Assembly (NCBI RefSeq): GCF_000755245.1
Contig: NZ_BBMP01000007.1
Coordinates: forward strand, 124,001 to 188,000
Reading direction: 5' to 3'
DNA length: 64,000 bases
Source: Halococcus sediminicola
Lineage (GTDB): Archaea > Halobacteriota > Halobacteria > Halobacteriales > Halococcaceae
Below are positions 19,423 to 48,216 of the stretch, piece after piece (position 1 is the first letter of the stretch; every line of letters starts with the position of its first letter). A model generated the notes under the pieces. The model was not told the origin of the DNA, did not search any database, and worked only from the letters and a program-made list of their open reading frames with translations. Made by a program: the position numbers and the translations under genes.

Positions 19423-20097
19423 ATGACAGATTCAGTCGAGACAGTGTTGTTCGACATCGACGACACGCTCTGTGAGTACCGCCGATCGGGCGACGAACTG
19501 CTCGCGCTCGCGTTCGAAGGGCACGGCGTGGAACCGTTTTTCACCATCGAGGACTACTACGCCCGCTACGCCGAGTTCGCCGAAACCACCGACTCCATCG
19601 ACGACCTCCGCACGGAGTGTTTCGCCGCCATCGCCGACGGGCAGGGCCGCGACCCGAACCTCGGTCGCGCGCTCGCAAATGCCTACACCGCCGAGCGCGA
19701 CCACCGGAACGTCCGCGCGCTGCCCGGTGCGCGTGAGGCGGTCGCGGCGCTCTCTGACGACCATCGGGTGGGCGTGGTGACGAACGGCCCACCGGAGATG
19801 CAATCGCAAAAGCTCGCCGCACTCGGTCTCGACGACGCTTTCGAGACCGTGATCCACGCGGGCTACGACGCCCCCGCAAAGCCCGACCCCGCACCGTTCT
19901 ACCGGGCGCTGGACGTGCTCGGCGGGCGACCGGAATCAGCCGTCCACATCGGCAACTCGCTTTCCTCCGATGTCGCCGGCGCGCAGGCGGCCGGTCTCAA
20001 AAGTGTGTGGCTCGACGACGGCTCAACGCCGGACCCGGTACCCGACCATACTTTGAAAACGATGGAGGAGTTGGCGACACCGCCGTGGCGAAGCTGA
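19423..20097 (+). CDS. HAD-superfamily hydrolase
   Basis: The 224-residue protein has the haloacid dehalogenase motifs in order: LFDIDDTL (nucleophile Asp) near residue 9, VVTNGPPEMQSQKL (motif II) near 120, KPDPAPFYRALD (motif III Lys) near 150 and HIGNSLSSDVAGAQAAGLK (motif IV). It is a class I HAD with a helical cap after motif I, like phosphoglycolate phosphatase or a nucleotide phosphatase. The substrate cannot be told. It begins 30 bases after the unknown gene on the same strand, perhaps in the mch operon. Confidence 0.87.
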   Translation: MTDSVETVLFDIDDTLCEYRRSGDELLALAFEGHGVEPFFTIEDYYARYAEFAETTDSIDDLRTECFAAIADGQGRDPNLGRALANAYTAERDHRNVRALPGAREAVAALSDDHRVGVVTNGPPEMQSQKLAALGLDDAFETVIHAGYDAPAKPDPAPFYRALDVLGGRPESAVHIGNSLSSDVAGAQAAGLKSVWLDDGSTPDPVPDHTLKTMEELATPPWRS

Positions 20098-25114: not shown

Positions 25115-25194
25115 GCCTCACTCTGTCGACGGTCGCCAAAGGGCGTTCGGGTTCGTCTCGCCACACTCATACCGGCGGAGTGCTTATCGATACC

Positions 25195-25839
25195 ATGCCC
25201 GTCTCGGCGGTCGCGTTCGACCTCGATTACACGCTCTGCGTTCCCGAGCGCGATCGCCAGACGCTGCTCGACGAGGCGACGGCGGCGGTCGGTGCGCCCC
25301 GGCTCTCGCGCGAGACGTATCTCGACGCCCATCGACGAAACCTCACGAACGAGACGCGCGAAGCCATCTTCACGGACCTGCTCGACGACGAGGGCGTCTC
25401 GCCCGCGGCGCTCGCCGACGCCTACCGCGATACTATCAGCGACGCACTCGTGCCGGTCGAGGGGGTCGAGGCGCTCGTCACGGACCTCCGCGAATCCTAT
25501 CGGATAGGACTGCTCACCGACGGCCCGGTGCGCGCCCAGCGGGCGAAACTCGACGCGCTCGGGTGGACGGAGCTGTTCGACGCGGTCGTGGTCACCGGTA
25601 CGCTCGACGCCGGCAAGCCCGACGAGCGCGCGTTTCGCGCGGTCATCGAGGAACTCTCGACGGCGGCCGAGGAGACCGTCTACGTCGGCGACCATCCGGA
25701 CATCGACATCGCGGGCGCACACGCCGCCGGTCTGCGGACGATTCAGGTCACCGACGACGAGCCGATCGCCGAAGCCGACGGGGCGGTCGAACGGAACGCG
25801 CTCACGGCGCACCTCCCGAACCTCATCGAGTCCCTCTAG
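25195..25839 (+). CDS. HAD-superfamily hydrolase
   Basis: This 214-residue protein shows AFDLDYTL (motif I), LLTDGPVRAQRAKLDALG (motif II), GKPDERAF (motif III) and VGDHPDIDIAGAHAAGL (motif IV). A helical cap lies between motifs I and II, as in class I HADs. It is probably a phosphatase for a small metabolite, though the substrate is unknown. I chose the ATG at 25195 over an in-frame ATG at 25180 because the homologous start is MPVSAVAFDLDYTL. Confidence 0.85.
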   Translation: MPVSAVAFDLDYTLCVPERDRQTLLDEATAAVGAPRLSRETYLDAHRRNLTNETREAIFTDLLDDEGVSPAALADAYRDTISDALVPVEGVEALVTDLRESYRIGLLTDGPVRAQRAKLDALGWTELFDAVVVTGTLDAGKPDERAFRAVIEELSTAAEETVYVGDHPDIDIAGAHAAGLRTIQVTDDEPIAEADGAVERNALTAHLPNLIESL

Positions 25840-27988: not shown

Positions 27989-29125
27989 ATGGCGTTCCAG
28001 CTATCGGGAGAACACGAGGCCATCCGCAAGGCCGTCCGCGAGTTCGCCGAGGACGAAATCAAACCCGTCGCGCGCGAGCACGACGAGTCGGGCGAGTACC
28101 CCGAAACACTCAGGCGCGAGGCCGCCGAGTACGACTTCGTCGCGCCGAACATCCCTGAGGCCTATGGAGGGGCGGGCATGGACGCGCTCGCGTCGTCGCT
28201 CGTGACCGAGGAACTCTGGCGTGCCGACCCCGGCATCGGCAGCGCGGTCGGCTCGGCGGGCTTCGGCAGCAACATGCTCATCGCCTACGGCGACGAGTGG
28301 ATGAAAGAGGAGTGGCTGCCGGAAATCGCCGCGGGCGAGGCGGTCTCGGCGAGCGCCATCTCCGAACCCGCCCACGGCTCGAACGTGGCGGGTATCGAGA
28401 CCCGCGCGGAGCGGGACGGTGACGAGTACGTCCTCGATGGCAACAAGATGTGGATCACCAATGGAACCGTGGCCGACATCGCCATCGTGATGGCCAAGAC
28501 CGACCCCGGCGCTGGCCATCGGGGCATCACGGCGTTTCTCGTGCCGACCGACACGGATGGATTCACGGCCGAGAAAATCGACAACAAGCTCGGGATTCGT
28601 GCCTCCGATCTCGCGGAATTACGCATCGACGACGTCAGAGTACCCGAGGAAAACGTCGTCGGCGAGGTCGACGAAGGGTTCTACCAGTTGATGAACTTCT
28701 TCGCCGCCGGGCGAGCGAGCGTCGCCGCCCAAGCGGTGGGGGCCGCACAGGGTGCGCTCGACGCCGCCCGCGAGTACGCCGGCGAGCGCGAGCAGTTCGA
28801 CCAGCCCATCAGCGAGTTCCAGGCTATCCGGCACAAACTCGCCGAGATGGCGACCAATACCGACGCCGCCCGCTCGCTGGCCTATCGAGCGGCGAGCGCG
28901 GTCGAAGACGATGCGGACGACGCGGTGCGGCTGGCGAGCATGGCGAAACTCTTTGCGAGCGAGCACGCCGTCGACGTCGCCGACGAAGCCATCCAGGTCT
29001 TCGGGGGTGCGGGCTACGTCACCGACCATCCCGCAGAACGGTACTACCGCGACGCGCGCATCACGAAGATCTACGAGGGCACGAGCGAGATCCAGAAGAA
29101 CATCATCGCCGACCGGTTGCTATGA
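27989..29125 (+). CDS. Acyl-CoA dehydrogenase
   Basis: This 378-residue flavoprotein carries the N-terminal, middle (SEPAHGSNVAGIETRAERDG) and C-terminal domains. The C-terminal FAD-binding and catalytic motif is GGAGYVTDHPAERYYRDARI then YEGTSEIQKNIIADRLL, with the Glu of YEGTSEIQ as the likely base. It dehydrogenates an acyl-CoA at the alpha and beta carbons, handing electrons to an ETF. The in-frame frame opens at 27878, but MAFQLSGEHEAIRKAVREFA at 27989 is the family start. Its stop overlaps the next ATG (ATGA), so the hydrolase is coupled to it. Confidence 0.93.
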   Translation: MAFQLSGEHEAIRKAVREFAEDEIKPVAREHDESGEYPETLRREAAEYDFVAPNIPEAYGGAGMDALASSLVTEELWRADPGIGSAVGSAGFGSNMLIAYGDEWMKEEWLPEIAAGEAVSASAISEPAHGSNVAGIETRAERDGDEYVLDGNKMWITNGTVADIAIVMAKTDPGAGHRGITAFLVPTDTDGFTAEKIDNKLGIRASDLAELRIDDVRVPEENVVGEVDEGFYQLMNFFAAGRASVAAQAVGAAQGALDAAREYAGEREQFDQPISEFQAIRHKLAEMATNTDAARSLAYRAASAVEDDADDAVRLASMAKLFASEHAVDVADEAIQVFGGAGYVTDHPAERYYRDARITKIYEGTSEIQKNIIADRLL

Positions 29126-29964: not shown

Positions 29965-30489
29965 ATGAGCGACGCACCCGAATGGGAGTTCACCGAGCGT
30001 GACGTGGTGATCTTGCGCGAACTCGCTGGCGATCCGCAGGTCTCCTCGCGCCAGCTCACCGACATCCTCGCCGAGAAGTACGACATCGACGTCTCGCACG
30101 TCACCGTGAGCGAGTCGATTCGACGGATGCGCGAGGAGGGTGTCTTCCGCGAAGCGGTCATCCCCAACGAGGACTTCTTCATCTTCGGACTGTTCGAGTT
30201 CAAGTTCAACGCCGAACACTTCGCCGCGGAGTGGCGCGCGGCGATGGAGTACATCCGCGACTCGCCAAACACCCTGTTCTATTTCCTCTCCGATGGGGAG
30301 TACCAGTGGAAGACGGTGATGATGTTTCCCACGCGCGAGGCCGAATCGCGCTGGATCCACGAGTTCTACAAGGAACACGGCAGCGTGGTCTCGAACATCC
30401 GCAACTCCGTCGTGACGAACGTCCTCAAATTTGGTACTGACCCCGAACTGCTCGAAAGCCTGAACGAGGGGCCACGAACTAGGGAGTGA
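29965..30489 (+). CDS. Winged-helix transcriptional regulator, Lrp/AsnC-like
   Basis: The 174-residue protein starts MSDAPEWEFTERDVVILREL and has a helix-turn-helix at about residues 23-60 (SSRQLTDILAEKYDIDVSHVTVSESIRRM), followed by a domain with phenylalanine-rich strands, DFFIFGLFEFKFN. It is not a full Lrp with a RAM effector domain. It follows the hydrolase by three bases and is probably an autogenous or local regulator of the acyl-CoA dehydrogenase operon. Confidence 0.75.
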   Translation: MSDAPEWEFTERDVVILRELAGDPQVSSRQLTDILAEKYDIDVSHVTVSESIRRMREEGVFREAVIPNEDFFIFGLFEFKFNAEHFAAEWRAAMEYIRDSPNTLFYFLSDGEYQWKTVMMFPTREAESRWIHEFYKEHGSVVSNIRNSVVTNVLKFGTDPELLESLNEGPRTRE

Positions 30490-31053: not shown

Positions 31054-31494
31054 TCAGCGCACCAGCGAGAGCAGCTCACAGGAGAGAACCGTCTCGCCGT
31101 CCTGATTCACCACTTCCGCACCGTATCTGACCGTTCCGTTCGCCCGCGGGTGGTCGCGTTCGACCGTTTCGAGCACCTCGGTTTCGACGTGGATGGTGTC
31201 GCCAATGAAGGTCGGCGCGGTGAACCTGAGTTCGTCCACGCCGTAGAACGCGATGACGGCGTCGCGCTCGTCCGGGGTTCGAGATTGCCAGAGCAGTCCC
31301 GTCATCGCCGAGAACACGAACGCACCGTGAACGATGCGCTCGCCATATTCGGTACCTTCCATCCGCACCTCGTCGGTATGGTGATGGTTGAAATCGCCGC
31401 TCACGCCGGCGAAGTTCGTCACGTCGGCTTCGGTTACCGTCCGTCGTGCCGTGGTCGAGGTCTCGCCCGCCTCGACCGATTCGAAGGTGCTCAT
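31054..31494 (-). CDS. MaoC-family acyl-CoA hydratase
   Basis: The 146-residue protein has the hot-dog fold R-hydratase signature GDFNHHHTDE near residues 33-42 and the IVHGAFVFSAMTG helix, typical of (R)-specific enoyl-CoA hydratases. It should add water to trans-2-enoyl-CoA, giving an (R)-3-hydroxyacyl-CoA, for beta-oxidation or polyhydroxyalkanoate supply. Its start overlaps the thioesterase stop by four bases, so both genes are part of the hydroxyacyl-CoA dehydrogenase operon. Confidence 0.88.
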   Translation of the reverse strand: MSTFESVEAGETSTTARRTVTEADVTNFAGVSGDFNHHHTDEVRMEGTEYGERIVHGAFVFSAMTGLLWQSRTPDERDAVIAFYGVDELRFTAPTFIGDTIHVETEVLETVERDHPRANGTVRYGAEVVNQDGETVLSCELLSLVR

Positions 31495-31943
31495 TGTCCC
31501 TCCCGGAAGAGCCGATAGCTGGTGCGGCCGACCGCCACAGGTTTTTCCTCGCCGTCCGGCGCGACGCTCGATACGGTCGCGTCGGTGACACCCATCGACT
31601 CGCCCGCGCGGACGACTTCTGCTTCGACAGTCAGATCGTCGGTCGCGGGACGGAGATAGGAGACGTTCAGGTCGGTGGTCGTGAGCGCCGCACCCTTGGG
31701 GTCCTCGAACGTCGACCGGAGCGCGAAGCCGCTCGCCGAGTCGACGAGCGTGGCCGCGACACCCCCATGCACGTTCGCCTCGCCGCCCGGCACGAGGTTG
31801 GTGAACTTCTCGTCGTAGGGTACGCGGAGCACGACCCGCCCGTGCTCGATGGCTTCGATTTCGAGACCGAGCCACGCGAACAGTCCGTGTTCGTCGACGA
31901 TCGCTTCGAGTCGGCTCCGCTCGGCGGTCGAAAGCTCCGTCAT
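31491..31943 (-). CDS. PaaI-family acyl-CoA thioesterase
   Basis: The 150-residue hot-dog protein contains NLVPGGEANVHGGVAATLVD near residue 48, matching the PaaI/YbgC-like hotdog motif with the conserved HGG, followed by TTDLNVSYLRPA. Such enzymes cleave short or aromatic acyl-CoA thioesters to release CoA. The start at 31943 overlaps the hydroxyacyl-CoA dehydrogenase stop by four bases. The likely role is to relieve dead-end CoA esters in fatty or aromatic acid catabolism. Confidence 0.86.
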   Translation of the reverse strand: MTELSTAERSRLEAIVDEHGLFAWLGLEIEAIEHGRVVLRVPYDEKFTNLVPGGEANVHGGVAATLVDSASGFALRSTFEDPKGAALTTTDLNVSYLRPATDDLTVEAEVVRAGESMGVTDATVSSVAPDGEEKPVAVGRTSYRLFREGQ

Positions 31944-33136
31944 CGGCTCTCGACCGGTTCGCCGTCCCCGTACTCGTGGAAGCCGGCCCCGCTCTCGACA
32001 CCGGTGTGGCCCGCCTCGACCAGTTCGACGAGGTAGTCGGCGGGTTCGAACCGCTCCTCGCCGGTTTCCTCCCGAAGGGATTCGAGCTTTTCGAGTACGG
32101 TATCGAGACCGATCTCGTCCCCTCGCCGGCAGGTTCCTTCGGGAAAACCGGTGCCGAGGCGCATGCCGGTGTCGATGGCTTCGGCGGTCGCCACGTCCTC
32201 GCCGACGAGTTTCGCGGCCTCGTTGACCATACACGCCTCCACGCGGAGGGTGTCGAACTCCTCGCCGTCGCCCTCCTCGTAGTCCGCACCGTCGCCCTCC
32301 TCGTAGTCGTAGTAGCCTTTCCCCGTTTTTCGGCCCAGTTCGCCGGCCTCGACCTTCTCCTCGATGAGCGGCGGGTTCTCGATACCGGCCTCCTCGCGCA
32401 CCGAGTGGCCGATGTCGATACCCGTCAGATCGCCGAGTTCGAACGGTCCCATCGGGTAGCCCCGCCGGTGGACCATCGCGGCGTCGACCTCCCGAACCGT
32501 GGCCTCGCCCGCTGAAACCATCCACGCGGGTTCGACCATGAACGGCCAGAGGACGCTGTTGACGACGAACCCGTTGACGTCCTTCCTGACGTAGATGGGC
32601 GTCTTGCCGACGGACTCGACGAACCCGTAGGCCGCTTCGGCGGTGTCGTCCGCGGTTCGTTCGCCGTAGATAACCTCCACGAGGTCCATCTTGACCGGTG
32701 GATTGAAGTAGTGCGTCCCGACCACCTGTTCTTCCCTGTCGGTAGCGCTCGCGATCTCGGTGATCGACAGCGAGGAGGTGTTCGAGGCGAGGATGGCGTC
32801 GTCGGGCGCGAGGTCGTCGAGGTCCGAATAGATCTCCTTCTTGAGGTCCATCCGCTCGGGCGCGGCCTCGATGACAAGGTCGACATCGCCGACCGCTTCG
32901 TCGAGGTCGGTCGTGATGTCGATGTGCGCGAGCACGTCGTCGGCATCGTCGACGTGCCCGCCCTCGGCGAGTTTATCGAGGCTCCACTCGATGTTCTCGT
33001 AGCCCGACTCGACGAACTCGTCTTTGACGTCGCGCATCGTCACGTCGTAGCCCGCGAGCGCGACGACTTCGGTGATGCCGTGGCCCATGTTGCCCGCGCC
33101 GAGCACCGCCACTCGTTCGATGTCGTCTGCCTCCAT
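31940..33136 (-). CDS. 3-hydroxyacyl-CoA dehydrogenase
   Basis: The 398-residue protein begins MEADDIERVAVLGAGNMGHG, the NAD-binding Rossmann motif. SNTSSLSITEIA and GTHYFNPPVKMDLVEV follow, and the C-terminal half shows FVVNSVLWPFMVEPAWM and a second conserved region, consistent with the two tandem C-terminal domains of haloarchaeal members. It oxidises (S)-3-hydroxyacyl-CoA to 3-ketoacyl-CoA. It is the first gene of an overlapping operon with the thioesterase and MaoC genes. A 24-base tandem duplication (32265-32308) codes a repeated DYEEGDG near the middle. Confidence 0.93.
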   Translation of the reverse strand: MEADDIERVAVLGAGNMGHGITEVVALAGYDVTMRDVKDEFVESGYENIEWSLDKLAEGGHVDDADDVLAHIDITTDLDEAVGDVDLVIEAAPERMDLKKEIYSDLDDLAPDDAILASNTSSLSITEIASATDREEQVVGTHYFNPPVKMDLVEVIYGERTADDTAEAAYGFVESVGKTPIYVRKDVNGFVVNSVLWPFMVEPAWMVSAGEATVREVDAAMVHRRGYPMGPFELGDLTGIDIGHSVREEAGIENPPLIEEKVEAGELGRKTGKGYYDYEEGDGADYEEGDGEEFDTLRVEACMVNEAAKLVGEDVATAEAIDTGMRLGTGFPEGTCRRGDEIGLDTVLEKLESLREETGEERFEPADYLVELVEAGHTGVESGAGFHEYGDGEPVESR

Positions 33137-33208: not shown

Positions 33209-34771
33209 TTATCCTTCCGCGCGCTCGGCCGACTCCTCGTCGCGGAGTTCGAACTTCTTGACCTTGCCGCTCGGCGTCTTCGGCAGCGATTCGACTGGGT
33301 AGTACGCCCGCGGGCGCTTGAAGTCCGCGAGGTCGTCGCTTTCGAGACAGTGGGTGTCGAGGTCCGATTCGGAAACATCGCCGACGACGTAGGCGACCAC
33401 GCGCTCGCCCCACTCGTCGTCTGGCTCGCCGACGACCGCGGCCTCCTCGACGTCAGAGTGCGAAAAGAGGACGTTCTCGACCTCGGTGGGGTAGACGTTC
33501 TCACCACCCGAGATTATCATGTCGTCGGTCCGATCGACGACGTACAGGAATTCATCGGAATCGCGGTAGCCGAGGTCCCCGGTGTAGTACCAGGTTTTCC
33601 CATCCGCCTCCCGGAGTGATTCGGTCGTGGCGTCAGGCTGATTCCAGTATTCGCGCATCGTACACGGGCCCGCAAAGAGGATTTCCCCGATGTCGCCCTG
33701 CGTCACCTCGTCGTCGGGGTCGCTTTCGGGTTCGACGATACGGAGGTCGTGGTTGAGCGCCGGCACGCCCGCCGACCCCTGTTTGGAGAGCTGCTCGTCA
33801 GGATGTTGAAACGCTCCGCAGGGACCGATTTCCGTCATGCCGTAGGCCTGCAGGTAGTCCTCACAGAGCTGTTCCATACACGAATCGAGTACCTGCTTCG
33901 GCATCGGGGCCGCCCCGTAGAACCCCATCCGTAGCGACGACACGTCCATTCCGAGCTGTTCCTGTGTTTTCGCCAGCGCGTTCCACGCCGTCGGCGCGGC
34001 GAACAACTGCGTGACGTCGTGTTCCTCGATGGCTTCGAGCACTCCCTCGGGGTCGAACTCGTGATGGATGACGGTCGTCGCGCCGATCTGCACCCGCGGA
34101 AAGAGGTTCACGTGGAGTTCCGCACAGTGATACAGCGGCAGACATGAGAGACCCACATCCGTTTTCGAGAGGTCGCTCTCGGCGAGACAGATGAGCGAGT
34201 GCTCGACCATATCGCGGTGCTCGTGGACGACACCCTTCGGCCGGCCCGTCGTCCCCGAGGTGTACATCAGCGTGTAGATGTCGTTCTCGTCGACTTCGAC
34301 GGCGGGCCGCTCTCCGCTCCCCGACTCCACCAACCCCCAGAAATCGCGGGCGTATTCGGGGGTGTCCTCGTCGATGAAGACGTACTCCGGAACGTCGAGG
34401 TCGTTTCGAGCGGTCTCGACGGCCTCGCGGGTTGCTTCCTCGAAGAGCACGACTTCCGACCCAGCATCGTCGACGATAAACTCGATCTCGCCCGCCGGGA
34501 GCCGGAAGTTCAGGGGATTGAACGCCGCGCCGAGTCTCGCACACGCGAAGACCGTGAGCACGATTTCGGTGCCGTTGTAGAGCACAGTCGAAACGCGGTC
34601 ACCCTTCTCCACACCGAGTCCGGCGAGTGCGTTCGCCAGCCGATTCACCTGCGCGTCGAACTCGGCGTAGGTCAACCGCTGACCGCGTCGTGGATAGACG
34701 AGCGCGTCGCGGTCGGGATACTTCTTGGCAGTGAGTTCGAGCGTCTCGCCGAGTGTGGGATGCATACGCAT
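33209..34771 (-). CDS. AMP-forming acyl-CoA synthetase
   Basis: This 520-residue ANL enzyme has YTSGTTGRPKGVVHEH near residue 170, YGMTEIGPCGAFQHPDEQLS in the acyl pocket region, and YTGDLGYRDSDEFLYVVDRTDDM followed by the catalytic KTPSGKVKKFELRDEE. It activates a fatty or other carboxylic acid. An in-frame ATG at 34765 gives MHPTLGETLELTA, so two starts are possible; AT-rich bases near 34788-34795 favour the upstream one at 34771. It is the first of two adjacent minus-strand ligases. Confidence 0.9.
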   Translation of the reverse strand: MRMHPTLGETLELTAKKYPDRDALVYPRRGQRLTYAEFDAQVNRLANALAGLGVEKGDRVSTVLYNGTEIVLTVFACARLGAAFNPLNFRLPAGEIEFIVDDAGSEVVLFEEATREAVETARNDLDVPEYVFIDEDTPEYARDFWGLVESGSGERPAVEVDENDIYTLMYTSGTTGRPKGVVHEHRDMVEHSLICLAESDLSKTDVGLSCLPLYHCAELHVNLFPRVQIGATTVIHHEFDPEGVLEAIEEHDVTQLFAAPTAWNALAKTQEQLGMDVSSLRMGFYGAAPMPKQVLDSCMEQLCEDYLQAYGMTEIGPCGAFQHPDEQLSKQGSAGVPALNHDLRIVEPESDPDDEVTQGDIGEILFAGPCTMREYWNQPDATTESLREADGKTWYYTGDLGYRDSDEFLYVVDRTDDMIISGGENVYPTEVENVLFSHSDVEEAAVVGEPDDEWGERVVAYVVGDVSESDLDTHCLESDDLADFKRPRAYYPVESLPKTPSGKVKKFELRDEESAERAEG

Positions 34772-34816: not shown

Positions 34817-36436
34817 TCACGGTTCGGCGTCGAGCACCACGTCCTCGGCTCGTTCGCGCAGCGCCATCTTGTCGAACTTCCCGGTCGAGGTGCGCGGGAT
34901 TCCGTCGACGAACTCGAAAGCATCTGGAAGCCACCAGTCGGGAAAGCGCTCGCCGAGATGCTCGCGGAGTTCGTCGGCGCTCGCCTCACCTGTACCGAAG
35001 ACGACGAACGCCAGCGGTCGCTCCTGGTATTTCTCGTGGGCAACACCTACTACTGTTGCCTCCGCGACGGCGTCGTGGGCCATCAGTTCGTTTTCGAGTT
35101 CCACACTCGATATCCACTCGCCGCCCGACTTGATGACGTCCTTCGTCCGGTCGACGATATCGACGTAGCCCTGTCCATCGCAGGTGGCGATGTCCCCCGT
35201 TCGCAACCACCCGTCCTCGGTGAACGACGTGCGGTTCGCTGCCGGGCGGTTGTGATAGGAATCGGCGACCCACGGCGCGCGCACCTGCAACTCGCCCATC
35301 GTCTCGCCGTCGGCGGGTACTTCCTCACCATCCTCGTCGACGATGCGCGTCCGGAAGCCGGGGACGGGCAGCCCGGCCGTCGCGCGGTAGGCGTACCGTT
35401 CCTCGGGGTCGCGCTCGGTCAATTCCTTGCGGAGCGTGCTCATCGTTCCGAGGGGGCTGGTCTCGGTCATGCCCCAGCCCTGGATGATGGGTGCGTCGTA
35501 GTCCTCGTCGTAGCGGCGGATCAGCGATTCGGGCGGCGCGGATCCGCCCACAGTCAATCTGTCGATATTGGAAATGTCCACGTCGGGGTTCTCATCGAGA
35601 TATTCCGCCATCTCCAGCCAGATGGTCGGGACGGCGGCCGACATCGTCACGCCCTCGTCGTCGATGAGTTCGGCGACGGAACCGGGGTCGGTGTGCACGC
35701 CGGGAAGGACCTGCTTCGCGCCGACGAACGTCGCGGCGTAGGGAACCCCCCAGCCGTTGGCGTGGAACATCGGAACGACTGGAAGAACGGTGTCGCGCTG
35801 ACTGATGCCGTTCGTGTCGGTGTGGCCGGACATCAGACTGTGGAGGTAGACCCCGCGATGGGAGTAGGTGACGCCCTTCGGTTTGCCGGTGGTCCCGGAG
35901 GTGTAACACATCCCGCACTCGTCGTCCTCCTCGATATCGGGCCAGTCGTACTCCGTTGGATGGCCATCGATGAACGCCTCGTAGGACGTAGCCGGCGAGA
36001 GCGAGGTGTCGGGTACGTCGTCTGCGAGAACGACATACTGCTCGACGGTTTCGAAGGCTTCGGCATTGTCCTCAACTTTTTCGAGAAACGCCGGGTCGAC
36101 GAACACGACGCGGTCTGCGGCGTCGTTGACGATGTACTGGAAGTGCTCGTCGGGCAGGCGCATGTTGCACATGTGGATCGACCGCCCGGAACACGGCGGC
36201 GCGAAGTACAGTTCGAGGTGGCGATAGTGGTTGAGCGCCACCGTCGCCACCCGGTCGCCCGATTCCAGTCCCAGTTCGTCGAGCGCGTGCGCCAACTGAC
36301 AGGTCCGCTCGTAGGCGTCGTGGTACGTGTAGCGATGGATCTCCCCATCGGATTGCTTGGTGACGATTTCGCGGTCGGGAAAGAGGTCCACCGCGCGGGC
36401 CAGCAGTTCGTCGAGGGTGAGTTGAACGTCCATCAT
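34817..36436 (-). CDS. AMP-forming long/medium-chain acyl-CoA synthetase
   Basis: The 539-residue enzyme starts MMDVQLTLDELLARAVDLFP. It holds the signature YTSGTTGKPKGVTYSHRG near residue 190, MFHANGWGVPYA near 250, and IIQGWGMTETSPLG near 340, plus WLRTGDIATCDGQGYVDIVDRTKD and the terminal KFDKMALRERAED Lys region. The HANGWG and QGWGMTETSP forms are typical of long-chain fatty acyl-CoA ligases. An in-frame ATG three bases further is an equal start. It overlaps none of its neighbours but lies beside the kinase gene and may share a promoter region with it. Confidence 0.9.
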   Translation of the reverse strand: MMDVQLTLDELLARAVDLFPDREIVTKQSDGEIHRYTYHDAYERTCQLAHALDELGLESGDRVATVALNHYRHLELYFAPPCSGRSIHMCNMRLPDEHFQYIVNDAADRVVFVDPAFLEKVEDNAEAFETVEQYVVLADDVPDTSLSPATSYEAFIDGHPTEYDWPDIEEDDECGMCYTSGTTGKPKGVTYSHRGVYLHSLMSGHTDTNGISQRDTVLPVVPMFHANGWGVPYAATFVGAKQVLPGVHTDPGSVAELIDDEGVTMSAAVPTIWLEMAEYLDENPDVDISNIDRLTVGGSAPPESLIRRYDEDYDAPIIQGWGMTETSPLGTMSTLRKELTERDPEERYAYRATAGLPVPGFRTRIVDEDGEEVPADGETMGELQVRAPWVADSYHNRPAANRTSFTEDGWLRTGDIATCDGQGYVDIVDRTKDVIKSGGEWISSVELENELMAHDAVAEATVVGVAHEKYQERPLAFVVFGTGEASADELREHLGERFPDWWLPDAFEFVDGIPRTSTGKFDKMALRERAEDVVLDAEP

Positions 36437-36496: not shown

Positions 36497-37564
36497 TTAG
36501 AGCGGCTCCTCGCCTTCGATGATGCGCACCGCGCGGTCGGCGAGTTCGGGAACCCCTGACTCCATCTTCGGGTAGAGCGGGTCGTCGGCGTTCCCTTCGA
36601 GGTAGCGCCGGAAGAACATCTCGCCCAGCCCCGCGAGTTTGTACACGGCGAGTGCACGATAGAAACGGTCGTTTTCGTACTCGATTCCCGTCCGCTCTTC
36701 GTAGCGTGCGACCAGATCCTGTCGAGTGGGATAGCCCTCACCGGTCATGAACGTCGCGTTGAGGGAGTCGGTGGCCTGGGGTGGCTCGGGATCGCCCGCG
36801 TCCCACCAGTACGAGAGCATCCAGCCGAGGTCCACGAGCGGGTTGCCGAGGGTACTCAGTTCCCAGTCGAAGACAGCGACGATTTCGGGCGGCGTTCCCG
36901 GCCCGTACATCACGTTGTCGAGCTTGTAATCGCCCTGCACGAGCGTGTGCGCCGGCGCGTCGGGTACGTTCTCGGTCAGCCACTCCATCACGTCGTAGAG
37001 TTCGGGCACTTCGCGTTCCTCGGTCGTGACGTCGAACGCCCACGTCAGTTGCTCCGACCAGCGCTCGACCTGCCGTGCGGTGAATCCTTCCGGGTGGCCG
37101 AACTCGCCGAGTCCCACGTCCTCGTACTCGACCGCATGGATCTCACAGAGACCGTCGACGAGTTCCTCACCGATGCGCTGTCGGTGTTCGGACGCGGCGA
37201 AGCGCTCGGGTTCGCTCTCGCGCAGGACGTCGCCTGCGACGCGCTCCATCACGTAGAAATCACACCCTAAAACCGAGTGGTCTTCACAGGCCAGTACGGT
37301 GGGCGGAACCCTCACATCGGTATCCTGCAAGGCGTCCATCACGCGATACTCCCGGAGCACGTCGTGGGCGGTGTCGGCCACCTCGCCCGGTGGCGGGCGG
37401 CGAACCACGAGGTCACGGTCGCCCCACTCGACGAACAGCGTCTCGTTCGAGTGACCTTCCTGATGGTGGTGCATCTCGTACTCCGCGACCGGACCGACCT
37501 CCCGCTCGAAGTAGTCCGCGAGCGACTCCTCGTCGACGATGCGCGCGAAATACTCGTCGCTCAT
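36497..37564 (-). CDS. APH-like kinase (ACAD10/ACAD11 kinase-domain type)
   Basis: The 355-residue protein has the APH/choline-kinase fold. The catalytic loop is QGDYKLDNVMYG at residues 210-221 and the metal-binding DWELSTLGNPLVDLGW near 233-248. These match the kinase domain of mammalian ACAD10/11 and plant IBR3 closely, in the family that phosphorylates 4-hydroxyacyl-CoAs before isomerisation. The canonical HGD is QGD here. It sits 241 bases from a divergent acyl-CoA dehydrogenase of the matching type. The substrate is inferred, not shown. Confidence 0.85.
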   Translation of the reverse strand: MSDEYFARIVDEESLADYFEREVGPVAEYEMHHHQEGHSNETLFVEWGDRDLVVRRPPPGEVADTAHDVLREYRVMDALQDTDVRVPPTVLACEDHSVLGCDFYVMERVAGDVLRESEPERFAASEHRQRIGEELVDGLCEIHAVEYEDVGLGEFGHPEGFTARQVERWSEQLTWAFDVTTEEREVPELYDVMEWLTENVPDAPAHTLVQGDYKLDNVMYGPGTPPEIVAVFDWELSTLGNPLVDLGWMLSYWWDAGDPEPPQATDSLNATFMTGEGYPTRQDLVARYEERTGIEYENDRFYRALAVYKLAGLGEMFFRRYLEGNADDPLYPKMESGVPELADRAVRIIEGEEPL

Positions 37565-37805
37565 CGGTGCTCCCGAACGGTCCGCGATGATTGCGTTACC
37601 ATTGGTAGATCGGTTGTATGCCCGGGTACGAATAACTGCTGGATAGTTCCAAATAAGACGATAGTTTCGGCGGTGATTTCGGCTTCTGTGGCCACGAGCA
37701 CCCGATGCCGGTGGCGTGGCGGCGATGGGGCGCGTTTCGCGCCCGCGCGGTCGAGCGACGCCATCGGCCCTATCGTTTTACAATGTAGTGTCGAGAAGGA
37801 TGTGC
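37565..37805. promoter_or_regulatory. Divergent promoter region between the kinase and the ACAD gene
   Basis: This 241-base gap carries several AT-rich patches, including one near 37626-37670. TTTTACA at 37776-37782 lies 24-30 bases before the ATG at 37806 and is the likely TATA box for the acyl-CoA dehydrogenase. No clear palindromic operator was seen. Confidence 0.45.
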
Positions 37806-39017
37806 ATGGAGTACAACGACTCGGCGACCGCGCGGGAACTGCGAGAGCGTGCCCACGCGTTCATGGAGGAGATCGTGTTGCCCGAGGAGCGCGCCCACGC
37901 GGCCGGTAGCATCGCTCACGATACCATCGACGACCTGCGCGAGCAGGCCCGCGAGTACGACGTCTATGCGCCCCAGATTTCCGAAGAGCACGGGGGAATG
38001 GGCATCGCGCTCCGGGACGTGTTGCCGCTGTTCGAGGAGGCAGGCCGGAGCCTGCTGGGCGCACCCGCGATGCGCGTCGATGCCCCCGACGAAGGGAACA
38101 TGCACACGCTCGAACTCGTCGGTACCGACTCCCAAAAGACAGAGTGGCTCGACCCGTTGGTGGCTGGCGACATCAACTCCGGCTTTGCGATGACCGAACC
38201 CGCTCCCGGCGGGGGGTCGGACCCAAAGATGCTGCGGACGACCGCTGAAAAGGAAGGGGACGAATGGGTCATCGACGGTCACAAGTGGTGGACCACGCAG
38301 GGCAGCGCGGCCGACGTCCTGCTCGTGATGGCCCGCACCGACGAGGAGGCCCACCCCTACGCCGGCTGTTCGATAATTTTGGTGCCAACCGACGCGGCGG
38401 GCGTCGAGATCGTCCGCGACATCCCCCATCTCGGTCAGGATCTCATGCCCGAGAGCCACGCCGAAATCCGGTTCGATGGGGTTCGCGTGCCCGAGGAGAA
38501 CCTCTTGGGGGAGGAAAACGAGGGCTTCACCGTCGCCCAGCAGCGCCTCGGTCCCGCCAGACTCACTCACTGCATGCGCTTTTCAGGGATGGCCGACCGC
38601 GCGCTCGACGTGGCGAAAGCCTACATGAGTGAACGAGAAGCGTTCGGCTCGTCGCTCGCCGACAAACAGGCCCAGCGCTTCGCCATCGCGGAGGCCGAAA
38701 CCCGCCTGCACGCCGCGCGGACGATGGTCAGGGACGCCGCCGCAAAACTCGACGCCGGCGGGGAGGCCAGAGTCGAAGTCTCGATGAGCAAGGTCTTCGC
38801 CGCGAACGTCGCCCAGGAGACCATCGACCTCGCCATCCAGTGCTGTGGCGGGGCCGGTATCAGTCGAGATCTGCCTCTGGCCGACTTCTACGACGCGGTG
38901 CGTGCCTTCCGCATCGTCGACGGGGCCGACGAGGTCCACAAGCGAACCATCGCGCGTGACGCCTTCGAGGACGTAAATCCCGAAGAAATCGAGGCGGTTC
39001 CGCGGTTCGGGGAGTAG
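37806..39017 (+). CDS. Acyl-CoA dehydrogenase, ACAD11/IBR3-like
   Basis: The 403-residue flavoprotein has SEEHGGMGIALRDVLPLFEE near the start, EPAPGGGSDPKMLRTTAEKE in the middle and GGAGISRDLPLADFYDAVRA then RIVDGADEVHKRTIARDAF at the end. The motif DGADEVHK, rather than YEGTSEIQ, is characteristic of the ACAD10/11/IBR3 subgroup. In that group the protein can act with a kinase to move a 4-hydroxyl to C3. The TTTTACA box at 37776-37782 fits the start at 37806 (an in-frame ATG at 37800 is possible). Confidence 0.88.
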   Translation: MEYNDSATARELRERAHAFMEEIVLPEERAHAAGSIAHDTIDDLREQAREYDVYAPQISEEHGGMGIALRDVLPLFEEAGRSLLGAPAMRVDAPDEGNMHTLELVGTDSQKTEWLDPLVAGDINSGFAMTEPAPGGGSDPKMLRTTAEKEGDEWVIDGHKWWTTQGSAADVLLVMARTDEEAHPYAGCSIILVPTDAAGVEIVRDIPHLGQDLMPESHAEIRFDGVRVPEENLLGEENEGFTVAQQRLGPARLTHCMRFSGMADRALDVAKAYMSEREAFGSSLADKQAQRFAIAEAETRLHAARTMVRDAAAKLDAGGEARVEVSMSKVFAANVAQETIDLAIQCCGGAGISRDLPLADFYDAVRAFRIVDGADEVHKRTIARDAFEDVNPEEIEAVPRFGE

Positions 39018-39054
39018 GCCGAGGAGTTTTGCACGCGCGTTGCTATCGGTTGGC

Positions 39055-39837
39055 ATGGACGAACACGAGGAGATTCGACTCGCTGCCGACGCCATCCGCG
39101 ACGCCGACAGCGTGGTGGCGCTGACCGGCGCGGGCGTCAGCACCGCCTCGGGCATCCCCGATTTCCGTGGCGAGGACGGTCTCTGGGAGACCCACGTCCC
39201 ATCGGATTTCCACATCGCGCGCTTCGAGCGCGCCCCGGGAGAGTTCTGGCGCGACCGTCTCGACCTTCGAGACTGTCTCCACGCGGCGGACCCCGAACCG
39301 AACGCCGCCCACGAGGCGCTCGCAACCCTCGAATCGATGGGTAAACTCGACGCGCTCGTCACCCAGAACATCGACGGGTTGCATCACGCCGCCGGCTCCG
39401 AGGATATCGTCGAGATTCACGGCTCGGGCGAGCGCGTCGTCTGTCGCGACTGCGGGCGGCGCATTTCGGCAGAGCCGGTCCGTGAGCGTGTCCGGAACGG
39501 CGACTGCCCGCCGCGCTGTGAGTGCAATGGGCTTCTCAAACCCGACGTCGTCCTCTTCGGCGAGCAACTCCCCGACCACGCGCTGCTGCGCTCGCACGCG
39601 CTCGCCGAGAAGAGTGATGTGTTTCTCGTCGCTGGCTCCTCGCTCGCCGTCGAACCGGTCGCCTCGCTGCCCCACACCGCCGCCGACACCGGTGCGACGA
39701 CCATCATCGTGAATCTGGAGCACACGCCGCTTTCCGAGCGCGCCGCCTACGACTTCCGGATGGACGTGACCGACGCGCTCCCGCGACTGGTGCGGGCGGT
39801 CGAGTCGACCTCTTCGCCCGCGTCGAACCGGGCATAG
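39055..39837 (+). CDS. Sir2-family NAD-dependent protein deacylase
   Basis: This 260-residue sirtuin has ALTGAGVSTASGIPDFRGED near residue 22 (NAD binding), TQNIDGLHHAAG near 103 (catalytic His) and zinc-binding cysteines CRDCGRR then CPPRCECNG. It removes acyl groups from lysines with NAD. It lies among acyl-CoA genes, where nonenzymatic lysine acylation could be substantial, so an anti-acylation role is plausible. The ATG at 39055 fits the family and a TTTTGC element at 39027-39032; an in-frame codon at 39040 is less likely. Confidence 0.93.
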   Translation: MDEHEEIRLAADAIRDADSVVALTGAGVSTASGIPDFRGEDGLWETHVPSDFHIARFERAPGEFWRDRLDLRDCLHAADPEPNAAHEALATLESMGKLDALVTQNIDGLHHAAGSEDIVEIHGSGERVVCRDCGRRISAEPVRERVRNGDCPPRCECNGLLKPDVVLFGEQLPDHALLRSHALAEKSDVFLVAGSSLAVEPVASLPHTAADTGATTIIVNLEHTPLSERAAYDFRMDVTDALPRLVRAVESTSSPASNRA

Positions 39838-45064: not shown

Positions 45065-45772
45065 TCACCCGTCGCGTTCGACGCCAACGAGATCGCAGAT
45101 TTCGAACGGGTCCTCGATACGGTACGTGACGGTCGGGTCGTCGGGATCGGCCTCGCTCGCGCTCCCGCCGAAGGCAGCGGTGTCGATGCCCATCCGCGCC
45201 GCGCCCTCCATGTCGTTTTCGTAGCGGTCGCCGACCATCAGCGCCCGTGCGGGGTCGATACCTGCCTTGTCGAGCGCCGTCTCGAACATCGCCGGGTCGG
45301 GTTTCGTTCGGCCGACCTCCTCGGAGGTCGTCACGGCGTTGAGATGCTCGCGCACGCCGAACTGCTCCAACAGGCGCTCACCCTCCCACGTGTCGATGTC
45401 GCTGACGACGCCCTGATGCACGTGGCCATCGAGTCGGCGGATGGCCACGACCGTTTCGCTCACGGGTTCGAGGTTCTCGTGGGTCGCGCGCTCGAAGACC
45501 GGCAGCCACTCCTCCTCGGGGAGTTCGCGGCCGACCATCGCGGCGACCGCCCGCTGGTAGCCGACCCGCGCGCTGCGGAATTCGGTGCCATCGCGGGTCG
45601 TGAAGTGAGTTCCCAACTCCTCGCGCCACGTTGCGAGCGCTTTCTCCATGTCGAGATCGTGTTCCTCGGCGAGCGCTCCGACGAATGACCGGTGACCCGC
45701 CCGGACCGATTCGAGGTCGAGGATGACGCCGCCGATGTCCCAGAAGATTGCCTCGTACTGTGAATCATTCAT
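45065..45772 (-). CDS. HAD-superfamily hydrolase
   Basis: This 235-residue protein has motif I as FWDIGGVILDLES, so the second Asp is Gly, as in YihX-like HAD-IA members. Motif II is VVSDIDTWEGERLL, with Lys in GRTKPDPAMFETALDKAG, and motif IV is MVGDRYENDMEGAARMG. It is probably a phosphatase. The ATG at 45772 fits MNDSQYEAIFWDIGG; the in-frame codon 36 bases upstream lies inside the preceding unknown gene. It begins seven bases after that gene's stop. Confidence 0.85.
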   Translation of the reverse strand: MNDSQYEAIFWDIGGVILDLESVRAGHRSFVGALAEEHDLDMEKALATWREELGTHFTTRDGTEFRSARVGYQRAVAAMVGRELPEEEWLPVFERATHENLEPVSETVVAIRRLDGHVHQGVVSDIDTWEGERLLEQFGVREHLNAVTTSEEVGRTKPDPAMFETALDKAGIDPARALMVGDRYENDMEGAARMGIDTAAFGGSASEADPDDPTVTYRIEDPFEICDLVGVERDG

Positions 45773-46229: not shown

Positions 46230-46438
46230 ACGAATCTATCAAGTCTGAATCACGTAATTGTTGTGGGTTCATCTCCAACAGGCAGCCGAAGATTTGTTGA
46301 TATCATGAGTCTTTGCGATCCGGGATTATTACCGGTGGTAAATAAATAAATATCTATTGTCATTGATGGTAGCGGCGGGATTTATTAGCGTGCCATCGGT
46401 AACGGCGGTGTGATGGAATCCACCACGCGGAGGGCGCG
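46230..46438. promoter_or_regulatory. AT-rich intergenic region and SDR promoter
   Basis: This 209-base gap continues the AT-rich patch. TTTATTA at 46381-46387 is a strong TATA-like box. About 27 bases after it, at 46413, a nine-codon frame (MESTTRRAR) begins and ends as ATGA over the SDR start at 46439. If the transcript starts near 46413, this small frame would be the first translated unit. Confidence 0.45.
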
Positions 46439-47209
46439 ATGACGACCGAGCAGTTCAGCGTCGACGGCGACACCGCGCTCGTCACGGGCGCATCGAGCGG
46501 CATCGGGCGGGAAATCGCGGAACGATTCGCCGACGACGGGGCCGAGGTCGTGGTCTGCTCGCGCGAACAGGACAACGTCGACCCCGTGGCGGACGGAATC
46601 GAGGACGCCGGCGGCTCGGCGCTCGCCGTCGAGTGCGACGTGCGCGAGCGCGAGTCGGTCGAGGCACTGGTCGAGGCAACAGTCGAGGAGTTCGGCGATC
46701 TCGACACGCTCGTGAACAACGCGGGCGCGAGTTTCATGGCGAACTTCGAAGGCATCTCCGAGAACGGCTGGAAGACCATCGTTGACATCAATTTACATGG
46801 TACCTACCACTGCACGCAGGCCGCCGGCGAGGTGATGCGCGAGGCCGGCGGGGGAACCATCGTGAACTTCGCCAGCGTCGCCGGCCAGGAGGGCGCACCG
46901 TACATGAGCCACTACGCCGCCGCCAAAGCGGGTGTGGTGAACCTCACCTCGACGCTTGCCTACGAGTGGGCCGACGACGGGGTGCGGGTCAACTGCATCG
47001 CACCGGGATTCGTCGCCACACCGGGCGTGGCGAGCCAGATGGGCGTCACCGCCGATGACATCGATCGAGAGGAAGTCGACAGAAAGATCGGCACGAGCGA
47101 GGAGATCGCCGACGTGACCCAGTTTCTGGCCTCGCCCGCCGCGTCGTATCTCACGGGCGAGACCATCACCGCACGCGGCGTGCCCGACATCATGGAATCG
47201 CCCGAATGA
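46439..47209 (+). CDS. Short-chain dehydrogenase/reductase
   Basis: This 256-residue SDR has the cofactor motif VTGASSGIGREIA near residue 15, NNAGA near 91, and the catalytic YXXXK as YAAAKAG near 160. The C-terminal segment GVRVNCIAPGFVATPGV is family-typical. It reduces or oxidises a keto or hydroxy group with NAD(P). It overlaps the following F420-type oxidoreductase gene by four bases, so both are likely parts of one pathway, perhaps for a keto acyl compound. Confidence 0.92.
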   Translation: MTTEQFSVDGDTALVTGASSGIGREIAERFADDGAEVVVCSREQDNVDPVADGIEDAGGSALAVECDVRERESVEALVEATVEEFGDLDTLVNNAGASFMANFEGISENGWKTIVDINLHGTYHCTQAAGEVMREAGGGTIVNFASVAGQEGAPYMSHYAAAKAGVVNLTSTLAYEWADDGVRVNCIAPGFVATPGVASQMGVTADDIDREEVDRKIGTSEEIADVTQFLASPAASYLTGETITARGVPDIMESPE

Positions 47210-48216
47210 GTCCCGCAGCCGACCGCGACGTGTTCTTGCCCGTGGGCGCACAGCCGAGCATCGACGCGCTCTGTGCGCAGGCCGAGCGCGCCGAGGAACT
47301 AGGCTACAATCGCGTATGGCTGCCCGAGACGTGGGGTCGCGACGCGGTGACGGTGCTCACCTCGATTGCCCATCGAACGGACGAGGTCGGCATCGGCACC
47401 TCGATTCTGCCCATCTACTCGCGTTCCCCAGTTTTGATCGGCCAGACCGCCGCCACCCTTCAGGAGGTCTCGGACGGACGTTTTCGGCTGGGTCTCGGTC
47501 CGTCGGGACCGATCGTCATCGAGAACTGGCACGGCGTCAAGTACGGCAACCCGCTCCGCCGAACGCGCGAGACCGTCGAGATAGTGAAGCAAGTGCTCGC
47601 CGGCGAGGAGGTCGACTACGACGGCGACTACTTCGATCTCTCGGGCTTTCGGCTGCGATGTGACCCACCCGAAACCCCACCGAACGTGGACGCGGCCGGC
47701 ATGGGACCGAAAAGCGTGGAACTCGCCGGGCGTTTCGCCGACGGCTGGCATGCGCTCATGCTCACTCGTGAGGGGATCCGCGACCGCCTCGACGACCTCT
47801 CCCGAGGCGCGGACCTCGCCGACCGCGACCCCGATGACGTGCGCGTGACGCTCTCGCTGACCTGTGCAGCCCTCGACGATGGTGAGCGTGCCCGCGAGTC
47901 CGTCCGCCAGCATCTCGCCTTCTACGTGGGCGGAATGGGTACGTTCTACCGCGACAGTCTCGCGCGCAGTGGCCACGAGGAAACCGCCGAAGCGATCTAC
48001 GAACACTGGCAGGCCGGCGAGCGCGAGGCGGCGATGGACGCCATCGACGACGACCTCCTCGACGCCATCGCGATCGCCGGCACCCCCGAGCAAGCTCGCG
48101 GGCGCTTCGAAAAATTCGCCGCCATCGACGGCGTCGACGGGATTTCGGTGTCGTTCCCGCGCGACGCGACGCTCGACGAGATCGAAGCGACGACCGCGGC
48201 GCTGGCCCCGAACTGA
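47206..48216 (+). CDS. LLM-class F420-dependent oxidoreductase (NP1902A/TIGR04024 type)
   Basis: The 336-residue protein has the luciferase-like TIM-barrel motifs: YNRVWLPETWGRDAVTVL near residue 35, GIGTSILPIYSRSPVLIGQT and DGRFRLGLGPSGPIVIENWHG near 90, which is typical for haloarchaeal TIGR04024 members. Haloarchaea make coenzyme F420, so reduction by F420H2 is likely. The start overlaps the SDR stop. The substrate is unknown. Confidence 0.86.
   Translation: MSPAADRDVFLPVGAQPSIDALCAQAERAEELGYNRVWLPETWGRDAVTVLTSIAHRTDEVGIGTSILPIYSRSPVLIGQTAATLQEVSDGRFRLGLGPSGPIVIENWHGVKYGNPLRRTRETVEIVKQVLAGEEVDYDGDYFDLSGFRLRCDPPETPPNVDAAGMGPKSVELAGRFADGWHALMLTREGIRDRLDDLSRGADLADRDPDDVRVTLSLTCAALDDGERARESVRQHLAFYVGGMGTFYRDSLARSGHEETAEAIYEHWQAGEREAAMDAIDDDLLDAIAIAGTPEQARGRFEKFAAIDGVDGISVSFPRDATLDEIEATTAALAPN

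Follow-up and report, generated by a model that had tools for sequence, protein, structure and literature searches.

Examination of a 64,000-nucleotide segment of the haloarchaeal genome of Halococcus sediminicola (hereafter the window) reveals a kinase gene and an acyl-CoA dehydrogenase (ACAD) gene that are divergent neighbours with 241 bp between them (Table 1) and that, judged from their sequences, very probably constitute a two-gene module bringing 4-hydroxyacyl-CoAs into β-oxidation. A phosphorylation route for 4-hydroxy acids has been worked out in Pseudomonas and mammals, and its kinase and phosphate-removal chemistry is established for ACAD10/11 and LvaA/LvaC. It is from these characterised relatives that we infer the chemistry and the substrate class of the haloarchaeal pair. 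Archaea are not mentioned in two papers on the mammalian proteins (PMC12440821, PMC11342911). Both open reading frames lie where an earlier note on this DNA had placed them, as separate, divergent genes, and the two kinase motifs that it quoted, QGDYKLDN and DWELSTLG, are found; the motif with which it had the dehydrogenase end, DGADEVHK, is present, but near the C-terminus and not at it. The longest reading frame of the ACAD gene begins with a GTG at 37716, and alignment of orthologs favours the ATG at 37806 as the start.

Table 1. Features of the window discussed in the text
Feature	Coordinates	Strand	Remarks
Predicted 4-hydroxyacyl-CoA kinase (ACAD10/11-type, APH-fold)	36497..37564	-	355 aa; Pfam APH 4e-43; ACAD11 chain match; catalytic and CoA-contacting residues
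Predicted 4-phosphoacyl-CoA-processing ACAD (product 2-enoyl-CoA)	37806..39017	+	403 aa; ACAD11 match; R626, R631, HCMR and D753 equivalents; tree
Divergent promoter region	37565..37805	.	Palindrome TACCATTGGTA at 37597-37607
HAD-family protein, motif I D-x-G (WDIGGV)	45065..45772	-	Predicted regulator or phosphatase of the kinase step; co-occurrence, motif
SDR oxidoreductase	46439..47209	+	Candidate 4-oxoacyl-CoA reductase or hydroxyacyl-CoA dehydrogenase
AMP-forming acyl-CoA ligase A	34817..36436	-	Directly downstream of kinase; AMP-binding 1e-76
AMP-forming acyl-CoA ligase B	33209..34771	-	AMP-binding 6e-91
3-hydroxyacyl-CoA dehydrogenase	31940..33136	-	3HCDH_N 2e-63
PaaI-type hotdog thioesterase	31491..31943	-	4HBT 2.5e-13; TIGR00369 above its cut-off
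MaoC-type enoyl-CoA hydratase	31054..31494	-	MaoC_dehydratas 8e-24
Winged-helix (Lrp/AsnC-like) regulator	29965..30489	+	No Pfam match; relatives annotated Lrp/AsnC or winged-helix
Ordinary acyl-CoA dehydrogenase (internal negative control)	27989..29125	+	Pfam ACAD domains; catalytic E in YEGTSE; no HCMR
Zn alcohol dehydrogenase			Beyond the MaoC gene, with the Lrp-like regulator and the ordinary ACAD

The matches of both proteins to ACAD11 structures are far beyond chance. Among the best matches of the kinase to solved structures are 9o56 (5e-59), 3dxp and the ACAD11 chain 8v3v (E=1.5e-47), while the ACAD, which contains three ACAD Pfam domains, retrieves 4hr3 and ACAD11 (8v3u, E=7.5e-65, and 2wbi, 2e-63), with ordinary ACADs next at 4e-48. 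In the kinase portion of mouse ACAD11, D220 has been tested by mutation, and N225 and the CoA-contacting R176 are known from modelling (PMC12440821). Alignment places equivalents of D220 and N225 in the QGDYKLDN motif of the window kinase, which also has both CoA-contacting arginines, namely the R176 equivalent and the one beside the αC glutamate (R86 in PMC12440821, placed at 84 by the chain numbering used here). Arginine occupies the R176 position in all kinase orthologs; the other haloarchaeal APH proteins have A, E, D, W, L or I there. Together these features support classification of the protein, by function class, as an ACAD10/11-type 4-hydroxyacyl-CoA kinase. Separately, one group of haloarchaeal APH proteins (L089-L095), 36-42% identical to the kinase, has A or E at the CoA-contacting arginine position and comes mostly from genomes without the ACAD.

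In the ACAD domain of mouse ACAD11, R626, H634, R637 and D753 have been mutated and the HCMR motif is essential; in the accompanying model, Arg/His/Arg residues touch the phosphate on C4 (PMC12440821). Equivalents of R626, R631, His634-Cys-Met-Arg637 and D753 are all seen in the window ACAD (segment RLGPARLTHCMR). All haloarchaeal orthologs examined have the pattern R....R..HCMR, which the ordinary ACADs of the same loci all lack, and the catalytic position is D in the DGADEVH of the window protein against E in most well-aligned ordinary ACADs. The tested ACAD11 residues occur in every ortholog compared, and neither ordinary ACADs nor other APH proteins have them as a set (four ACAD rows from the same genome, L226, L229, L230 and L235, were out of frame and were left out of this residue comparison). 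These residues support an ACAD10/11-LvaC-type enzyme that is predicted to process 4-phosphoacyl-CoAs.

The substrate may nevertheless differ from that of the characterised enzymes, for identity to ACAD11 is 37% over the aligned domain, while LvaC shares 56-62% with human ACAD11/10 (PMC11342911). A proline that has been associated with an enlarged cavity (human ACAD11 Pro463; PMC11342911) is Ala in the window ACAD, variable in haloarchaea and replaced in some kinase-linked bacterial members. As it varies among bacterial members too, we dropped it as a mark of the family; its absence here is the reason why we call the ACAD a sister branch and not an ortholog of ACAD11 or LvaC. It is conceivable that the same chemistry acts on another substrate, with the hydroxyl elsewhere or on an unusual acyl chain (a branched, cyclic or diacid CoA ester), and that simple 4-hydroxy fatty acids are not physiological. 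The separate branch formed by the haloarchaeal ACADs, the unconserved proline and the variation between genomes in the ligases near the pair all speak for such a substrate, as does the lack of ordinary fatty-acyl membrane lipids in haloarchaea. We nonetheless consider it improbable, given that neither the catalytic Asp nor any of the Arg/His/Arg residues that bind phosphate varies, and that these residues contact the C4 phosphate in the ACAD11 model (PMC12440821).

Phyletic profiles were compared across 145 Halobacteria genomes, with kinase orthologs defined at E<=1e-75 (next matches at 4e-50) and ACAD orthologs at E<=1e-85. The two genes occur in an identical set of 70 genomes from 28 genera with 0 mismatches (Fisher p=4e-43, from counts that ignore genome relatedness), and in the genera of mixed state (g5, g7, g13 and g21) they are either both present or both absent. 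When the closest kinase and ACAD genes are taken in each of the 70 genomes, 31 have them side by side (divergent in 29) and 15 have them within 15 kb, while in the other 24 the distance is greater or the genes are on different contigs. Outside Halobacteria, no genome sampled from this phylum had the kinase at E<=1e-20. The SDR gene, present in 65/70 pair genomes and near the kinase in many, also occurs in 17/75 others, and the winged-helix gene, often beside the pair, in 55/70 and 17/75 respectively; that these profiles are looser indicates that identity of profiles is not automatic. As their profiles overlap that of the pair and are not identical to it, both genes were rejected as strict members of the module.

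These profiles bear on a further alternative, namely that an ordinary dehydrogenase merely happens to lie next to a phosphotransferase for antibiotics or other small molecules. The kinase does show a weak match to the NCBIfam APH(3') model, but its 34.8 bits fall far under the 205-bit cut-off of that model, and it has the CoA-contacting arginine that is missing from other haloarchaeal APHs. An antibiotic kinase was rejected on this score and on the active-site residues. With Asp in place of the catalytic Glu of ACADs, and with profiles that are identical even when unlinked genomes are included, the alternative as a whole is scarcely credible. The proposal of the earlier note that the pair matches the two halves of ACAD10/11 is instead strengthened by the tested catalytic and substrate-binding residues and by the shared phyletic profile.

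In a phylogeny computed with IQ-TREE, the HCMR ACADs (the ACAD11/LvaC superclade) stand apart from ordinary ACADs with support of 100/100, and the haloarchaeal proteins form a branch of their own inside this superclade (100/100); this branch sides with LvaC-like and Thermus proteins (94/80) and not with the ACAD11 group. For the kinase the tree gives, with moderate support, a position apart from LvaA and nearer to ACAD11- and Bacillus-type kinases. On these positions, the pair is not simply LvaA/LvaC, nor is it an ACAD11 divided in two. The label "LvaA/LvaC-type" given earlier thus suits the ACAD, which is nearer LvaC, and does not suit the kinase, nor is LvaB present. The LvaC reference was taken from an lva-like Pseudomonas operon (L225) with the gene order regulator-kinase-DUF6285-phosphatase-ACAD-SDR. 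Another Pseudomonas ACAD (in L176) was rejected as LvaC, its neighbours being LysR-type regulators and CoA-transferase-like subunits, which mark it as a different, unlinked HCMR ACAD. Pseudomonas genomes (loci L168-L210) were also seen to have an HCMR-type ACAD with no linked kinase, an ACAD11-type kinase being found elsewhere in 10/10 of those searched.

Comparison with known systems shows the following: 1) Mammalian ACAD11 (8v3u, 8v3v, 2wbi) and ACAD10 have the same two catalytic modules and the tested active-site residues, but the haloarchaeal modules are separate divergent genes and not a fusion, and do not keep the cavity proline. 2) The L225 operon likewise keeps its kinase and its HCMR-type ACAD as individual genes alongside acyl-CoA partners, and the haloarchaeal ACAD, 38% identical to the LvaC-like protein of this operon, falls nearer to it in the tree; however, the SDR is 30% identical to the LvaD-like SDR of L225 and the kinase, on another branch, 24% to its LvaA-like protein, and the haloarchaeal pair has neither DUF6285 nor an adjoining histidine phosphatase. 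3) The Thermus thermophilus HB8 pTT27 cluster (L127) has an ACAD 43% identical to ours and an adjoining kinase, together with an SDR, MaoC, a PaaI thioesterase and a ligase, but is a co-directional operon with DUF6285, a histidine phosphatase in place of the HAD, and a kinase on the LvaA branch. 4) The Haloferax mediterranei pHME132 cluster (L126), with kinase and ACAD both 69% identical to those of the window, also has the HAD, the SDR (78% identical), the 3-hydroxyacyl-CoA dehydrogenase and the winged-helix regulator; it differs in being more compact and plasmid-borne, with a 3HCDH-ECH fusion (654 aa) beside the kinase. A compact cluster of largely the same genes occurs in Haladaptatus, where the 3HCDH-ECH annotation is similar, and in bacterial relatives the pair occurs in operons with ligase, SDR, MaoC, ECH and thiolase genes.

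LvaB is a 12-kDa partner of LvaA. DUF6285, which with a histidine phosphatase follows the kinase both in L225 (5447-6522) and in the Thermus plasmid cluster L127 (9128-10128), is probably the LvaB family, to go by its size and its position in these two loci. A search of the H. sediminicola genome for DUF6285 gave no match, which argues that the locus is not an lva operon. A strict levulinate operon orthologous to lvaABCDE could account for an ACAD nearer LvaC than ACAD11 in the tree, for the SDR and ligases nearby and for the growth of H. mediterranei on levulinate described in PMC12455835. We hold it to be unlikely, however, in view of the missing DUF6285 at the LvaB position, a kinase that lies off the LvaA branch, the low identity of the SDR to its LvaD-like counterpart, and the fact that no sigma-54 regulator of the LvaR type was seen beside the pair.

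A third gene, coding for a HAD-family protein, is found in 51/145 genomes, all 51 of them among the 70 with the pair (p=1e-23, with relatedness ignored), and lies <=500 bp from the kinase or ACAD gene in 29 genomes and <=25 kb away in 42. Counting against the link, the window copy is 6 kb from the ACAD, with apparently unrelated genes in between. Motif I of this protein is D-x-G, with the first Asp only, in 21/21 relatives and in the window copy, while two other HADs of the window (19423-20097 and 25180-25839, identified by eye) keep D-x-D; its nearest solved structures are HADs of the PH0459/BH32 type. In ACAD10, HAD, kinase and ACAD modules are joined in one protein; the HAD domain, which keeps the first Asp only, has negligible activity as a phosphatase and holds the kinase in check (PMC11342911). 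The parallel drawn here with the archaeal HAD is one of architecture and of the incomplete DxD motif, within a shared superfamily. By this comparison, each of the three modules of ACAD10 seems to have a gene of its own in haloarchaea, and the co-inherited HAD would probably act, as the ACAD10 HAD domain does, to limit the kinase or to keep the 4-phosphoacyl intermediate from building up, a role that we propose less firmly than those of the pair itself. The fuller reading is that of a complete ACAD10 system in three genes, in which the HAD is a dedicated trans-acting regulator of the kinase or a phosphatase clearing the intermediate, and control by a phosphatase fold has been recruited more than once; this is tentative, and we would call it plausible yet somewhat short of probable. 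A histidine phosphatase is found beside the kinase in P. citronellolis (PMC6692424); if the reading of the HAD is true, the HAD of haloarchaea and of metazoan ACAD10 and the histidine phosphatase of the bacterial lva-like operons would be instances of this repeated recruitment.

The remaining neighbours bear out the acyl-CoA setting noticed earlier, with two ligases, an alcohol dehydrogenase, a 3-hydroxyacyl-CoA dehydrogenase, a thioesterase, a hydratase and a second ACAD; that survey caught the kinase/ACAD pair but not its HAD and SDR companions. In the pathway that these genes suggest, a CoA ligase would activate a 4-hydroxy acid or else a 4-oxo acid, the CoA ester of the latter being reduced by the SDR, and the kinase would then phosphorylate the 4-hydroxyl of the acyl-CoA. 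The FAD-containing ACAD would bind the 4-phosphate through its Arg/His/Arg cluster and, with Asp as base, expel phosphate with no net oxidation to yield a 2-enoyl-CoA, which the neighbouring MaoC hydratase and 3-hydroxyacyl-CoA dehydrogenase could take onward. Less weight is placed on the SDR as a putative 4-oxoacyl-CoA reductase and on levulinate as the growth substrate. The best NCBIfam models for ligase A are 3-(methylthio)propionyl-CoA ligase, below its cut-off, and long-chain ligases.

Several further observations concern the layout of the locus. Unlike its kinase-adjoining relatives in other haloarchaea, the 3-hydroxyacyl-CoA dehydrogenase has no enoyl-CoA hydratase half, and a separate MaoC gene lies close to this unfused enzyme in the window. 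Downstream of the ACAD, in the same orientation, comes a Sir2-type deacylase gene (39040-39837), which is found close to the pair in 9/56 loci compared; a link to protein acylation from acyl-CoAs is possible. A reading frame resembling luciferase-like (LLM) oxidoreductases (47206-48216, family assigned by eye) shares 4 bases with the end of the SDR gene, which suggests an SDR-LLM operon. The perfect palindrome TACCATTGGTA in the kinase/ACAD promoter, kept in congeneric genomes only (two to three) and not in other genera, is a possible operator. It has a relative with one mismatch at 46330, and an operator shared by the kinase/ACAD and SDR promoters was considered and dropped, as two congeners have no palindrome upstream of the SDR gene.

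Together, the sequence comparisons give good support to the view that the pair is a new archaeal version of the known ACAD10/11-LvaA/LvaC pathway, which the HAD partner would lift above a plain homolog, and about half of the sampled haloarchaeal genomes have a coherent version of the route for phosphorylating 4-hydroxy acids. H. mediterranei makes PHBV, and the route could supply 3-hydroxyvalerate precursors from levulinate, which is of interest for bioplastics. For H. mediterranei DSM 1411, growth on levulinic acid at 0.6 g/L in mineral medium is given as 0.097 per hour in PMC12455835, and the portions of that paper drawn on here name no genes for it. The pHME132 cluster is the obvious candidate, and candidate genes can now be named for levulinate growth observed in an archaeon. 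That an organism with the same cluster grows on levulinate makes plausible the original prediction of growth on gamma-hydroxy or levulinic-type acids. The corresponding parts of human ACAD10 and ACAD11 turn 4-hydroxy fatty acids into fat-burning intermediates, so that the pathway is now testable in a simple microbe, and the separate-gene system offers a chance to study the puzzling HAD module of ACAD10 alone.
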